Part shown: positions 47,056-58,666 of the stretch, piece by piece | Numbering within the stretch: the stretch's first letter is position 1 | How the letters are laid out: every line of letters begins with the position of its first letter | Source of the DNA: Salinimonas chungwhensis DSM 16280 | GTDB taxonomy: Bacteria; Pseudomonadota; Gammaproteobacteria; Enterobacterales; Alteromonadaceae | DNA: 64,000 bases | Assembly (NCBI RefSeq): GCF_000378185.1 | Contig: NZ_KB899381.1 | Span: 62,001 to 126,000 of the forward strand | Direction of reading: 5' to 3' | Program-made: the position numbers and the translations under genes | Notes under the pieces: generated by a model | The model's input: only the letters and a program-made list of their open reading frames with translations | Databases searched by the model: none | Told to the model about the DNA's origin: nothing

Positions 47056-47105
47056 GATTTTTTCCTCTATATTGGGGTTAGGCCTCCATATACCCCTTGT
47101 ATCGA

Positions 47106-47119
47106 TCCAGCGAGCTGGA
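47106..47119 (-). promoter_or_regulatory. Stem-loop in the rpsB leader (possible S2 autoregulation element)
   Basis: TCCAG and CTGGA pair around a four-base loop, and flanking GGGGTG/TACAAGGGGTAT sequences allow a larger fold. E. coli and other gammaproteobacterial rpsB leaders carry conserved stem-loops through which S2 represses translation. Assignment is by position. Confidence 0.4.
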
Positions 47120-47225
47120 CACCCCGATAATCAAGTGTCGGTATATGTGTGTTATTGATAAAATTCGTACCTGGATTTGCCGCCAAATCTTAATTTTTAG
47201 ACGAACTCAAAAAACAGGCGGGCGC

Positions 47226-52321: not shown

Positions 52322-53074
52322 TTATATCTCAAGATTGACCCGATAATCACGCCAGCCTGAGAGTAAATTGCGCATGTCTTCTCGGGGCGTGGTGCTAATT
52401 TCAATGACCTTGCCACTGACGGGATGTTTAATCACTAATCTGGTACAAGTTAAGGCCAAATTTTCAAAACCAAACCGTGATTTCAAAAATTTATTTTGTT
52501 TTCCGTCCCCATGTGTCGTATCTCCCAGAATCGGATGCCGCAAATGTACCAGGTGACGTCGAAGCTGATGTTTACGCCCGGTAACGGGATGTAGTTTCAC
52601 AGCTGTATAGCGAGAGGTCGCGTAGCGCCCCGATGCAATGGGCAGTTCATAATGTGCCAGCGAATGATACTCAGTTGTCGCTGGCTGAGGCGGGATTTCC
52701 CCCCGGTGTTTATCCGCTATTTTATCCGGTTTGAAACGCAGGGCATAATCGATCAACCCGCTGCCAATAATAAAGCCCCGCACGATGGCAAAATACGTTT
52801 TCTGGACTTTCCGAGCCATCATTTGCTGGCCCAGTTCGCTGGCTGTGCTGCCATCGTAGGCAAACAATAATATCCCGGAGGTTGGCCGGTCGAGCCTGTG
52901 TACCGGAAAAACATGTCGGCCTATCTGGTCTCGAAGCTGTTGTACAGCGAACTGTGTCTCGCGTTTATCGATAGGGCTGCGGTGAACCAGAAGTCCTGGC
53001 GGTTTATCGATGGCGATGAGGGAGTCGTCCTGGTAAATGACTGAAAGATGCTGATGCGGTAATAATTCATCCAT
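52322..53074 (-). CDS. truC: tRNA pseudouridine(65) synthase TruC
   Basis: The 250-residue RluA-family enzyme carries the catalytic motif HRLDRPTSG with Asp62, and LAIDKPPGLLVHRS-like sequence (IAIDKPPGLLVHRS) upstream. VTGRKHQLRRHLVHLRHPIL is the second conserved block. In E. coli TruC modifies U65 of tRNA-Ile1 and tRNA-Asp. Its first eight bases overlap the yqcC 3' end. Confidence 0.93.
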   Translation of the reverse strand: MDELLPHQHLSVIYQDDSLIAIDKPPGLLVHRSPIDKRETQFAVQQLRDQIGRHVFPVHRLDRPTSGILLFAYDGSTASELGQQMMARKVQKTYFAIVRGFIIGSGLIDYALRFKPDKIADKHRGEIPPQPATTEYHSLAHYELPIASGRYATSRYTAVKLHPVTGRKHQLRRHLVHLRHPILGDTTHGDGKQNKFLKSRFGFENLALTCTRLVIKHPVSGKVIEISTTPREDMRNLLSGWRDYRVNLEI

Positions 53075-53387
53075 GTTGTATTTCGCTCAAGTTGTCTAAC
53101 GTCAAAAGCAGATGAACCAGCTTGTTATGGTCGGCGCCTAACATTTGTTGCGCCATGGGCGCTACAGCCATATTAATCGGTACATTTTCGTAGTGTTCGC
53201 TGTAGTGGTACATCTGTGGCAAAAACGTAAACTGCAACCATTGTTCGAAGGTCATTGTATCGGCGGCAAATGGTATATCCGATGCCATCGCCTCACTGGG
53301 CGGGGCATCACTGGACCACATCTCATTTTGTTTTAAATATTGCTCAATCCTGACTAACTGTTGCTCAATAAAGCGTGGGTCTGACAC
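53067..53387 (-). CDS. yqcC: YqcC family protein (DUF446)
   Basis: A 106-residue, mainly helical cytoplasmic protein of unknown function, conserved in gammaproteobacteria as the gene before truC. The core MTFEQWLQFTFLPQMYHY (about residues 45-62) and PINMAVAPMAQQM match YqcC. Translation is probably coupled to truC through an 8-base overlap. Confidence 0.9.
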   Translation of the reverse strand: MSDPRFIEQQLVRIEQYLKQNEMWSSDAPPSEAMASDIPFAADTMTFEQWLQFTFLPQMYHYSEHYENVPINMAVAPMAQQMLGADHNKLVHLLLTLDNLSEIQHG

Positions 53388-54550: not shown

Positions 54551-54853
54551 ATGACGCTGGGTGAGCTGGTTTTATTTTTCTTGCTTATTTTAACGGGTAT
54601 TCAGTTCTGGCGAATTCGCAGCATCAGTGAACAGGCTTACGAACAGATAGGTCATTATTGTAAAACTCACCAGCTGCAGTTACTTTCTGTGGCCCGGCAA
54701 CGTACTCGCCTTTCGTTCAAATATGGCAAAATAGATTGGCTTTCTACCTTTGCTTTCGAATTCTCTGGTAATGGAGAAGATCGTTACACCGGTCATGTAG
54801 ATATGATCGGCAAGCGTATGATCCGAACAAATCTGCCACCTTACAAGATTTAA
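54551..54853 (+). CDS. DUF3301 family membrane protein
   Basis: This 100-residue protein has one N-terminal membrane helix (LGELVLFFLLILTGIQFW) and a cytoplasmic or periplasmic domain ending YTGHVDMIGKRMIRTNLPPY. The family is widespread in gammaproteobacteria and has no known function. It follows the DUF3549 gene by 4 bp and ends at a bidirectional terminator shared with the csrB RNA. Confidence 0.87.
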   Translation: MTLGELVLFFLLILTGIQFWRIRSISEQAYEQIGHYCKTHQLQLLSVARQRTRLSFKYGKIDWLSTFAFEFSGNGEDRYTGHVDMIGKRMIRTNLPPYKI

Positions 54854-54859
54854 ACAGAC

Positions 54860-54891
54860 AAAAAAAAAGCGGCATCCTATGCCGCTTTTTT
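54860..54891. terminator. Bidirectional terminator for csrB and the DUF3301 gene
   Basis: GCGGCAT (54869-54875) and ATGCCGC (54879-54885) form a 7-bp GC stem with a three-base loop, extended by A-T pairs. It is flanked by nine A residues (a U tract on the minus strand) and six T residues (on the plus strand), so it can end transcription both ways. Confidence 0.93.
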
Positions 54892-55315
54892 GTGAATAAT
54901 GAAGTTCCTTCTCAACATTCCGTTGCAAAATCGTCTACCCTGACGCTTTCCCTTTTCCTTGTTCCCTGTTATCCGGTCAATCCTGTACCGGCTGCCTGAT
55001 ACAGACAGGTCCCTTTCCCTTTATCCACTTTCAACTGCCGTTCCTTTTGCAGCATCCATCTTCCTGACGGCGTCCTAAGTACATCCTGTATCCCGTTCCC
55101 TGAGAAAGCATACATCCTGTACGCTACTATCCCTACATCTCCGCTTCCCATCCTTAGATTGTCCATTTCCCTGCATGCTGCATCCGGCAACATATTTAGT
55201 CCTTCAGAGCATCCATGCTCCAGTCCAATATTCCCTTAGTCTACAAATCCCTGTAGTAAGCTTCCTTAGCTTCCCTGGTTTTCGTGTCTTCCAGACTCAT
55301 CGTGTATCCTTGTGA
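54860..55315 (-). ncRNA. csrB: CsrB-family regulatory RNA (CsrA sponge)
   Basis: Read on the minus strand this stretch of about 455 bases contains 36 GGA trinucleotides (mostly AGGA, GGGA or ATGGA), far above chance, mirrored as TCC on the plus strand. Many sit in small hairpins: AAGCT/AGCTT around AAGGA (55258-55272), CTACA/TGTAG around GGGATT (55241-55256), GAGCAT/ATGCTC around GG (55207-55220), CCGGT/ACCGG (54973-54991), and the terminator loop. GGA in loops is the binding signal of the regulator CsrA, and CsrB-type RNAs sequester it. The RNA ends at a strong terminator and a GacA/UvrY-type box lies about 180 bases upstream of the inferred start. In E. coli csrB also lies between yqcC and syd. 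The 5' end is estimated from a weak -10, so it is uncertain by tens of bases. Confidence 0.93.
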
Positions 55316-55320
55316 CAGGA

Positions 55321-55329
55321 AATATAGTA
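55321..55329 (-). promoter_or_regulatory. Likely -10 region of the csrB promoter
   Basis: TACTATATT on the minus strand offers TATATT or TACTAT as the -10. No good -35 is present, which fits an activator-dependent promoter. It puts the RNA start near 55313-55318. Confidence 0.5.
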
Positions 55330-55485
55330 CTGCTCTGGTAATAGTTTGCTATACGTAATTACAAAAATGTTAGATTGATAAATCTTGTGATCCGTAACTA
55401 AATTTAAAAACCCTATACAAAACATAGTGTTTATACTTTGGTCTAATTTTTTTCTCACAAAAAATAACGATTAAACTTACAAAAA

Positions 55486-55503
55486 TGTGCGATATCTCTT
55501 ACA
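55486..55503. promoter_or_regulatory. GacA/UvrY-type activator box upstream of csrB
   Basis: TGTGCG, six bases, CTTACA matches the consensus TGTAAG-N6-CTTACA at 10 of 12 positions, with a perfect right half. Its centre is about 180 bases upstream of the inferred csrB start, the usual distance for this class of RNA. It lies between csrB and the GNAT gene. Confidence 0.65.
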
Positions 55504-55549: not shown

Positions 55550-56200
55550 TTATTCGTTCGCTGGTCTGTTTTTAAACAAAATGTTGCCTGTAATTTGAGC
55601 GACTTCCAGTTGCTTAACGTGCTGGTATGCATCGTCTTCAAAAAATCGTTGATAGTAAGATAATGTCGCGAACACCCCCACCCCTTCACTGTCGGAATGA
55701 TTTATAACGATGTTGTCGATAGCGCCAAGCAGAATATGACCCAGACCTCGGTGCTGGTGATCTGGATGGACACCAATAAGGACAATCATGTGGAAATGGC
55801 TGGCAGGAATTGCAGCAAGTATATTTTCCTCTTTTTCCACGAGCTGACGCGTGCTGAAGAGGCCGGCTGTCAGCATCATCTTCACCCGCCAATGCCACAT
55901 TTTGCCTGGCGCAAAGCCCGAGCCGGGCTCTGCTAAGCAAGTAACAGCAAGCATCCGGTTTTCTTCAAACAACCCTATGAGTGTTTGCCCGCTATCCCAA
56001 AAGGCATAAAGTTCTTCACGAATAGCGCTGCGCAGACGGCTGTCGTAACCCTCTTTTTCAGCCTGGAAGATGTATTGCAATGTAGCATCGTCGAAATAGG
56101 CGTTATACAAAATCGAAGCGGCGACGTTCAAGTCGTCTGCATCTAGGTGCATGGCCTTGATAGCTGAAAGATCCGGCGCGGGGGTGGAAAGCTGACTCAT
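55550..56200 (-). CDS. GNAT-family N-acetyltransferase
   Basis: The 216-residue protein has the acetyl-CoA-binding motif A in VHPDHQHRGLGHILL (about residues 143-157) and an N-terminal Asp/Ala-rich start. The substrate cannot be inferred from sequence. It is transcribed away from the DUF3192 gene pair and ends 46 bp before the upstream box of csrB. It is not part of the classical yqcC-csrB-syd block of E. coli. Confidence 0.88.
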   Translation of the reverse strand: MSQLSTPAPDLSAIKAMHLDADDLNVAASILYNAYFDDATLQYIFQAEKEGYDSRLRSAIREELYAFWDSGQTLIGLFEENRMLAVTCLAEPGSGFAPGKMWHWRVKMMLTAGLFSTRQLVEKEENILAAIPASHFHMIVLIGVHPDHQHRGLGHILLGAIDNIVINHSDSEGVGVFATLSYYQRFFEDDAYQHVKQLEVAQITGNILFKNRPANE

Positions 56201-56894: not shown

Positions 56895-57191
56895 ATGGCA
56901 GAATCATCGGATCTATCCCTACAGGCGTTGTGTCAGCAAATTAAAGATGAGGGAAACCAGCCTTCTGTGGCTATGCTGAGGGCCAAGGCGCCTTTCAAGA
57001 TAAGTGTCACAGAGGCGATAGCGGCGATTAAGTCATTTAATGCAGCAGGTATGTCGCGACATGCGCCTAAACCGGCTGCGTCAGTTGGTGATCTGGAAAA
57101 GCGCATCAGCGAGCTTGAAAACGCAGTGGCTCTGTTAGAAAAACGCCTCAGCGCTTTGGATAACAATCAAGCGGGTGACGGCGCTAATTGA
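56895..57191 (+). CDS. Small coiled-coil protein, unrecognised
   Basis: The 98-residue cytoplasmic protein has an N-terminal region (DLSLQALCQQIKDEGNQPSV) with a helix-turn-helix-like feel and a C-terminal coiled coil (VGDLEKRISELENAVALLEK). The arrangement recalls DNA-binding KfrA-like N-termini but no family can be named. Its last 25 bases overlap the 3' end of the convergent syd. Confidence 0.75.
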   Translation: MAESSDLSLQALCQQIKDEGNQPSVAMLRAKAPFKISVTEAIAAIKSFNAAGMSRHAPKPAASVGDLEKRISELENAVALLEKRLSALDNNQAGDGAN

Positions 57192-57730
57192 TTCAGGAAC
57201 GTACTCAGATCGGGAGCCAGGACTTCATAGTGTTTTTTGCCAACCCGTTCAAGTATCACTTCTCCCGAATTGTTGATAATACTAAGAATCAGATTATCGT
57301 CATCAGTGAGGCCAAAAAACAGCGTTTCGGGCTGACGTAAACGTCGCTTCATCAAAACATGACCGATTAGGTTTTCCTGCAGACGCTCGAAGTCACTGTC
57401 ACTGACGACCTGAAGTAGTTCACACTCACCCTGTGGTGCGCGGGCCATCAGATTAAATGAATAGTACCGTGTAAAGAACACGCAATATTGCTGGTCTAGA
57501 GTTAGTTCCAGTGCGTCTTCCAGTTTGGCAAAACTATTGGCAGAGGACTGGCGTACCGGTTGCCAGCTTACATGGGCACCTTCATGAACCTCGTCATGCT
57601 GGTCGAGCTGATAACACGGCGTCGGCCAATCGGGTTCATACTCGACACGCAAGGGTTGCTGTGCATTTTGTGCATCAGCTTTGTACTGGCCAATTAACTG
57701 GTCAATCGCCTGTTCAATGGAATCACTCAT
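57167..57730 (-). CDS. syd: SecY-interacting protein Syd
   Basis: The 187-residue cytoplasmic protein has the Syd N-terminus IEQAIDQLIGQYKADAQN, CYQLDQHDEVHEGAHVSWQP and the FFTRYYSFNLMARAPQGECE core. Syd binds SecY and can sense disturbed translocon assembly. It diverges from queF by 96 bp, and the E. coli order syd-queF-ppnN is kept. Confidence 0.95.
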   Translation of the reverse strand: MSDSIEQAIDQLIGQYKADAQNAQQPLRVEYEPDWPTPCYQLDQHDEVHEGAHVSWQPVRQSSANSFAKLEDALELTLDQQYCVFFTRYYSFNLMARAPQGECELLQVVSDSDFERLQENLIGHVLMKRRLRQPETLFFGLTDDDNLILSIINNSGEVILERVGKKHYEVLAPDLSTFLNQLAPSPA

Positions 57731-57826: not shown

Positions 57827-58666
57827 ATGACAAACAAAACAGATTTTGCGCTACCTAAGGGCCTTACACTGGGTGAAGAAGTTACCTACGAGGCCCATTA
57901 CAATCCTTTACTCTTGCAGGGTGTACCACGCGCCTTAAGCCGCGATGCCCAGGGCATCGACACAGCAAATTTGCCATTTTCAGGTGTTGATACCTGGACT
58001 GGTTATGAATTATCGTGGCTGAATGCAAAAGGCAAGCCCCAGGTAGGCATTTTGGAGTGTCAGGTACCGGTAACCTCGCCATTTTTAGTAGAGTCAAAAT
58101 CGTTTAAGCTGTACCTGAATAGCTTTAATCAGACTCGCTTTGCGTCATTGGCAGAAGTCGAGTCAACACTGGGCCGGGATTTGAGCCAGTGCGCTGATCA
58201 TGAGGTTGAGGTAAAAGTCTTTCTGCCGAGTCAGTTTGATGCTTTTGATGTCGTGCCACTCAAGGGCACCAATATTGACCATCTGGATATCGAAGTAGAC
58301 TCCTACACGCCGGACGCCAGCCTTCTAAAAACATTGTCTCATAAGGTAAGCGAAACACTAACCAGTGATCTACTCAAATCCAACTGTTTGATAACCAGCC
58401 AGCCCGACTGGGCCAGTATTTTAATTAAATACGAAGGTCGTGCGCTGGATCAAAGCGCACTGCTCAGGTATCTGATTGGATATCGTCAGCACAATGAATT
58501 TCACGAACAGTGCGTAGAGCGGATATTTTGTGATTTACAACAATTGCCGGGGATGAACAAGCTTACTGTACTGGCACGTTATACCCGCCGCGGTGGGCTG
58601 GATATTAATCCGTTCAGATCGAATTTTGAAACACCCTATACAAATCGTCGCACGGCAAGACAATAA
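57827..58666 (+). CDS. queF: NADPH-dependent 7-cyano-7-deazaguanine reductase QueF
   Basis: The 279-residue enzyme reduces preQ0 to preQ1 in queuosine synthesis. It is the long, two-domain form. Catalytic Cys187 and Asp194 are in SNCLITSQPDWASILI, and the NADPH motif ESKSFKLYLNSF is at residues 89-100. Length is close to E. coli QueF (282). It diverges from syd. Confidence 0.97.
   Translation: MTNKTDFALPKGLTLGEEVTYEAHYNPLLLQGVPRALSRDAQGIDTANLPFSGVDTWTGYELSWLNAKGKPQVGILECQVPVTSPFLVESKSFKLYLNSFNQTRFASLAEVESTLGRDLSQCADHEVEVKVFLPSQFDAFDVVPLKGTNIDHLDIEVDSYTPDASLLKTLSHKVSETLTSDLLKSNCLITSQPDWASILIKYEGRALDQSALLRYLIGYRQHNEFHEQCVERIFCDLQQLPGMNKLTVLARYTRRGGLDINPFRSNFETPYTNRRTARQ

Follow-up and report, generated by a model that had tools for sequence, protein, structure and literature searches.

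Does an interval that appears empty of genes in Salinimonas chungwhensis DSM 16280 encode a regulatory RNA and, if so, of what kind? The interval lies at positions 54860-55315 of the window, by which we mean the whole stretch of 64,000 nucleotides that was analysed (contig NZ_KB899381.1, positions 62,001 to 126,000). An earlier note, made from the sequence alone, had read it as a CsrB-family RNA and as the main sponge for CsrA in this organism. We find that the interval is a conserved CsrB-type small RNA, and we put the probability that this RNA works functionally like CsrB at about 0.95. The features on which this reading draws were computed directly: the density and retention of GGA motifs, the RNA structure, the position of an upstream box, synteny, presence throughout the genus, and the csrA and uvrY genes of the same genome. 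For comparison, we used a set of 60 genomes, comprising the organism's own genome, 35 of the same genus and 24 from other families of the order. From these, 30 loci beside the DUF3301 gene were taken; one (L036) was dropped at contig ends, which left 29, the window included. A second locus (L031, 835 nt) was excluded from alignments A1, A3 and A4, was kept in the counts of length, GGA, boxes and dyads, and was entered as a miss in the dyad count.

An RNA gene in the GGA-rich interval

We recounted the GGA trinucleotides and found 36 in the 456 nt of the minus strand and none on the plus strand, in agreement with the number given previously for about 455 bases. This count exceeds that of every shuffled sequence: dinucleotide shuffles of the interval gave a mean of 18.8 and a maximum of 28 (n=2,000), and mononucleotide shuffles a mean of 14.9 and a maximum of 27 (n=10,000). 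The second-densest stretch of 456 nt on either strand of the window contains 15. The strong terminator described at the end of the RNA was also recovered: a terminator search placed a Rho-independent terminator, with a 13-bp stem and a T run, at 54891-54863 on the minus strand. It coincides with helix 9 of the consensus structure described below, and 7 of its 13 pairs have changed on both sides. Based on the GGA count, the start motif, covariation and a covariance-model score of 82 bits, the gene is assigned to 54859-55316 of the minus strand, about 458 nt with 36 GGA; its ends are predicted, the start being the G at 55316 (GTCACA) and the 3' end falling within the T run of the terminator.

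The earlier note had called the number of GGA motifs high compared with E. coli CsrB (about 20), and this holds. By the same counting, E. coli CsrB has 22 GGA in 369 nt, and 22 is also the number given in a review (PMC7652899). Within the genus, however, 36 is an ordinary value: when each RNA was taken to begin at its start motif and to end at the terminator-like hairpin of highest stability, the inferred RNAs of the 29 loci measured 439-835 nt (median 555) and carried 29-53 GGA (median 40). It is the density of the window RNA, 7.9 GGA per 100 nt, that is the highest of the 29. The longest of these RNAs, at 835 nt with 53 GGA, is that of L031 (1838-2672) in genome G009.

Rfam models and conserved structure

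The earlier note had named the lack of an Rfam match as a result that would speak against its reading, and such a match was indeed lacking. Neither RF00018 nor any other Csr family reached its threshold anywhere in the window, and RF00018 had no match in the organism's genome, while the E. coli control was detected. In a relaxed local search of the window, RF00084 (CsrC) reached 32.4 bits against a threshold of 61; its only genome-wide match was one of 25 bits elsewhere, at model positions 211-242. The window RNA is thus outside the Rfam CsrB and CsrC families as these are now modelled. Because the Rfam models failed, we rebuilt the case from alignments of relatives, and since the tests that are independent of Rfam agree with one another, we take the failure as a blind spot of the models.

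We assessed the structure of the RNA both in the single sequence and in an alignment. Of 100 dinucleotide shuffles of the window RNA, none folds as stably as the RNA itself (z -3.0). On average, the bases of its GGA motifs are unpaired in a fraction of 0.67, compared to 0.37 for all other bases, and in each of the 29 RNAs the unpaired fraction is higher for GGA bases than for the remaining bases; this excess is partly an effect of composition, since the other G and A residues (0.51) also exceed all other bases. In the minimum-energy fold, 16 of the 36 GGA are entirely unpaired and 5 lie entirely inside hairpin loops. The alignment A3, which covers the 3' half of 28 RNAs (L031 was left out for its length), yielded 48 consensus pairs with RNAalifold. 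Standard pairs occupy 96.7% of its cells, and 32 of the 48 pairs have changed on both sides. None of 500 shuffles reached any of five measures, and sliding the partners reduced pairing to 40-46%. In the row of the window RNA, GGA lies inside the loops of helices 2, 3, 5, 7 and 8 and is absent from those of helices 4 and 6. The claim that many of the GGA motifs sit in small hairpins is therefore upheld for the loops of conserved helices in the 3' half, but not by the single-sequence fold, with its 5 of 36 in hairpin loops. Both the covariation count and the covariance model that we built, R1 (127 positions), represent the 3' part of the RNA.

The GGA motifs are also retained between relatives. 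Between the window RNA and its two nearest relatives (L027 and L028), 25 and 22 of the 36 GGA are kept, and base identity is 83% and 81% inside GGA, compared to 58% and 61% outside. Among triplets that occur at least 9 times, GGA is the best-kept in both of these pairs; this lead is confined to the pairs that involve the window, as between L027 and L028 themselves GGA is kept in 29 of 34 cases and GAC does better, with 13 of 14. Together, these data demonstrate that the GGA motifs are more numerous than chance would provide and are preferentially retained.

Chromosomal position

The genes around the RNA occur in a familiar order. On the minus strand lie a flavodoxin gene of the yqcA type, a truC-type pseudouridine synthase gene (52322-53074; PF00849) and yqcC (DUF446; 53067-53387; PF04287), the last a neighbour of csrB in E. 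coli. They are followed on the plus strand by a DUF3549 gene and by the DUF3301 gene (54551-54853; PF11743), which flanks the RNA convergently. Beyond the RNA, the minus strand carries a 216-aa frame (55550-56200), a DUF3192 gene and syd (57167-57730; PF07348), which in E. coli adjoins csrB on its other side; queF follows on the plus strand (57827-58666; PF14819 and PF14489). In E. coli K-12, yqcA, truC, yqcC, csrB and syd are likewise all on the minus strand and are followed by queF on the plus strand. Since the flanking genes, truC and queF among them, have the order and strands of E. coli, the RNA lies at the csrB site and on the expected strand, with extra genes in between. We conclude that the window RNA is the positional ortholog of E. 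coli csrB.

Upstream region

A degenerate 28-letter start motif, with at most 3 mismatches allowed, occurs once in 35 of the 36 genomes of the genus and in none of the 24 others; its reversed control matched nowhere in the 60 genomes. In the window, a probable -10 element, TACTAT, lies at 55324-55329 on the minus strand, within a block of conserved columns in the 29 aligned upstream regions. A plain sigma-70 scan reported no promoter on the strand of the RNA. From these features, the RNA is predicted to be non-coding, with a promoter of its own and an intrinsic terminator.

Further upstream, 187 nt before the start, is a UvrY/GacA-type box, TGTAAGAGATATCGCACA, at 55486-55503 on the minus strand, with 2 mismatches to the UvrY box consensus TGTAAGN6CTTACA, which was taken from PMC3171408. 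A predicted box with at most 2 mismatches is present in all 29 loci of the genus, 186-188 nt upstream in 27 of them and 175 nt upstream in 2. As a test by itself, a genome-wide scan for such boxes proved uninformative and was set aside: it gave 127 matches of at most 2 mismatches compared to 140 in the reversed control, and thus no enrichment. Because matches of equal quality are as common in the reversed control, the evidence for the box is its conserved position, which points to a putative UvrY/GacA binding site upstream of the RNA.

Between the box and the promoter is a second conserved dyad, TAGACCAAAGTATA, at 55432-55445 on the minus strand. The dyad pattern TANACNAAAGTNTA (N counted as a match) is found at 12 or more of its 14 positions in 25 of the 29 loci, 58-59 nt past the start of the box. 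In some loci the two arms differ jointly, TATAC/GTATA in place of TAGAC/GTCTA, and such a joint change of both arms fits a dimeric regulator.

Occurrence and copy number

The model R1 matches all 36 genomes of the genus, the organism's own included, and 8 of the relatives that it matches were outside its training set. With stricter filters, it had no match in the 24 genomes from the order's other families. The match is single in 33 of the 36, and there are 2 or 3 matches in G002, G016 and G023. In the organism's own genome, blastn (10 of 13 candidates scored), the start motif and R1 (58 of 630 candidates scored) each point to one place. As this is the sole copy found in the genome, it is plausible that the RNA is the main CsrA sponge. 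Of the earlier proposal, then, the part that names a CsrB-type RNA is supported by synteny, the box, covariation, the retention of GGA and the R1 matches throughout the genus, and the word main is plausible.

The multiple matches in G002 include two tandem csrB-type copies beside the DUF3301 gene (L062, at 908 and 1567), each with a perfect box 186 nt upstream; a third R1 match lies on the same contig at a distance of about 100 kb. Vibrio is already known to have duplicated csrB genes (PMC6262261).

Outside the genus, a cluster of at least 18 GGA per 300 nt was found within about 1.1 kb of the DUF3301 gene in 3 of the 14 genomes of other families whose DUF3301 region was examined (L064, L069 and L073), all of which have no R1 match. 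In two of the three, a box with one mismatch precedes the cluster's first GGA by 179 or 198 nt; in L064, the sequence leading up to the cluster is masked. These clusters suggest that the csrB site is common to more of the order than is the sequence.

Partner proteins

CsrA is encoded twice in the organism's genome (L102, 767-964, and L103, 1477-1656). The best match to UvrY has 56% identity and 255 bits, compared to 74 bits for the runner-up, and its gene lies directly before a uvrC-like frame (recognised by eye), as in E. coli. BarA-like kinases are several, the best with 34% identity over residues 204-909, and more than one is a candidate ortholog. CsrA and UvrY are both encoded in the same genome as the csrB-type RNA. 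One of the CsrA genes is downstream of an alaS-like frame, and the other, of 59 aa, adjoins a PAPS-reductase-like frame that resembles phosphorothioation genes (both recognised by eye). A second csrA copy is also present in the relative G004, on a separate contig.

With these partners, the locus would operate as follows. An RNA of about 458 nt that encodes no protein would be started from a promoter activated by UvrY/GacA and ended by the intrinsic terminator; its GGA motifs, a part of which are displayed in the loops of conserved small hairpins, would bind many CsrA dimers; and when the BarA/UvrY-type two-component system is active, the RNA would titrate CsrA off mRNAs. From the known Csr system we infer that the RNA is transcribed, that UvrY activates it and that it binds and titrates CsrA, and by this analogy the RNA very probably sequesters CsrA via its roughly 36 GGA sites.

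Alternative explanations

Could the interval instead be a small protein gene, with codons that are rich in GGA by chance? A frame of 74 codons does stay open across 54969-55193 on the minus strand, and by tblastn a part of it resembles sequence in both nearest relatives, in L027 at 43% over 68 aa (E 6e-7) and in L028 at 39% over 51 aa (E 2e-4). However, the aligned stretches themselves contain stops, since the matching frame stays open for no more than 42 codons at a time in L027 and 31 in L028. Elsewhere among the 28 related loci the frame has short matches with E of at least 0.76 or none, and it is intact in none of the 28. A Pfam search with the frame gave no match, several gaps of the three-way alignment have lengths not divisible by three, and the changes across the RNA track base pairs. 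We therefore rejected a protein-coding reading of this frame, which is not conserved as a protein in relatives; the earlier note had called it an accident of the repeated motif, and our results bear this out. That this or another frame accounts for the interval is the least probable of the alternatives, with hardly any weight left to it.

The GGA-rich region also lies downstream of the frame at 55550-56200 on the same strand, and its start site is predicted, so it might be the 3' untranslated region of the gene for the 216-aa protein, or some other GGA-rich RNA that does something other than titrate CsrA. Against this stand the box, the -10 block and the start motif, which precede the GGA region with near-constant spacing in 29 of 29 loci, the extra copies in three relatives, including the tandem pair of G002, each copy of which has its own box, and the finding that GGA is the best-kept triplet between the window and its two nearest relatives. 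We consider such an origin very unlikely, although it is the least improbable of the three alternatives. Slightly less credible still is the idea that the locus is a csrB remnant, degenerate or silent, while another site in the genome supplies the active sponge. The best R1 score of the window RNA, 82 bits, is the lowest of the 36 genomes of the genus, in which scores reach 145, and three relatives have 2 or 3 matches. A low score, however, fits divergence within a small clade, as G026, G022 and G004 also score low; moreover, the window RNA retains the box, the start motif, the terminator and 36 GGA at the top density of the 29, and the searches by blastn, 5' pattern and R1 (with part of the candidates scored) revealed no second copy in the genome.

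Relation to known CsrB-type RNAs

The window RNA resembles E. coli CsrB (b4408; RF00018) in its site and strand relative to truC, yqcC, syd and queF, in its start (GTCGACAGGGAG in the window RNA against GTCACAAGGATA in E. coli CsrB) and in its many GGA. Control by UvrY is described for E. coli CsrB (PMC7652899, PMC6262261). Unlike E. coli CsrB, the window RNA has 458 nt and 36 GGA rather than 369 nt and 22, it is missed by the Rfam model, and several genes, DUF3549 and DUF3301 among them, lie between yqcC and syd. Shewanella oneidensis has CsrB1 and CsrB2, of about 420 nt and predicted from CsrA-binding motifs, whose expression requires BarA/UvrY and for which the UvrY box TGTAAGN6CTTACA is given (PMC3171408); these two copies flank a transposase gene, and we liken them to the window RNA by their description. 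In Pseudoalteromonas fuliginea, the CsrB-type RNAs Pf1-Pf3 were recognised by their GGA motifs; a GacA-type box is reported for Pf1, which shows little similarity to E. coli CsrB (PMC9927453, PMC11882849). Pf1 is credited with 21 or 25 GGA (the papers differ), Pf2 with 21 and Pf3 with 9, compared to the one RNA found here, with 36.

A further parallel comes from Alteromonas macleodii Te101, in which three GGA-rich RNAs, Aln1a-c, are reported as the highest-expressed genes of the dataset and proposed as CsrA sponges (Hou et al., PMC5864184). They are placed in one intergenic region of 404 bp, with three starts, 127 locus-tag steps from csrA (PMC5864184). In G024, a genome of the same genus on a single contig, a rough count gave about 125 frames of at least 80 codons between the csrB locus and csrA, in the same order. 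In ten 20-kb stretches of G024, 200 kb in all, no site but the csrB locus is dense in GGA: it has 16-17 GGA per 200 nt, compared to at most 7 elsewhere. A gap of exactly 404 bp was not reproduced on either side of the genus loci when frames of at least 40 codons were considered; in four loci (L035, L042, L044 and L046), the gap on the side of the DUF3301 gene measures 385-396 bp. Aln1a-c are described as three separate RNAs with separate starts, whereas the window locus has one RNA and one conserved promoter. Because the csrB locus is the sole GGA-dense site in these stretches of G024 and lies at a roughly similar distance from csrA (125 versus 127), we think that Aln1a-c probably derive from this csrB-type gene, and the csrB-type RNA would then be their counterpart. 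Among the matches listed, by title and abstract, Hou et al. was the only work on this gene in a search for Alteromonas csrB or Aln1, and a search for Salinimonas together with CsrA found none.

The mechanism, that of an ordinary Csr system, and the closest relatives are known already; what is new is the enlargement throughout the genus, the failure of Rfam here, the chromosomal site held in common with csrB of E. coli and the likely identification of Aln1 with this gene. That the csrB of a marine copiotroph lineage occupies the E. coli csrB site argues for descent over repeated invention. Curated RNA models overlook this gene in S. chungwhensis, and probably across the genus, and the model R1 together with the promoter rule can now be used to detect it. 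If the link to Aln1 is true, some of the most abundant transcripts of Alteromonas come from one csrB-type gene.

E. coli splits the titration of CsrA between CsrB and CsrC. With somewhat less than even confidence, we suggest that the genus instead has an enlarged CsrB (439-835 nt, 29-53 GGA) as its mostly single titrator, that Aln1a-c may be segments of this RNA or products of internal starts, and that the second dyad may serve an extra regulator.

Other features of the region

The 216-aa frame upstream of the RNA has no Pfam match, and its protein has 75% identity to one in Salinimonas profundi, the sole named relative found. Phage records gave no DNA match. A t44 RNA (RF00127) is present in the window at 47077-47169 on the minus strand, with a score of 74 bits.
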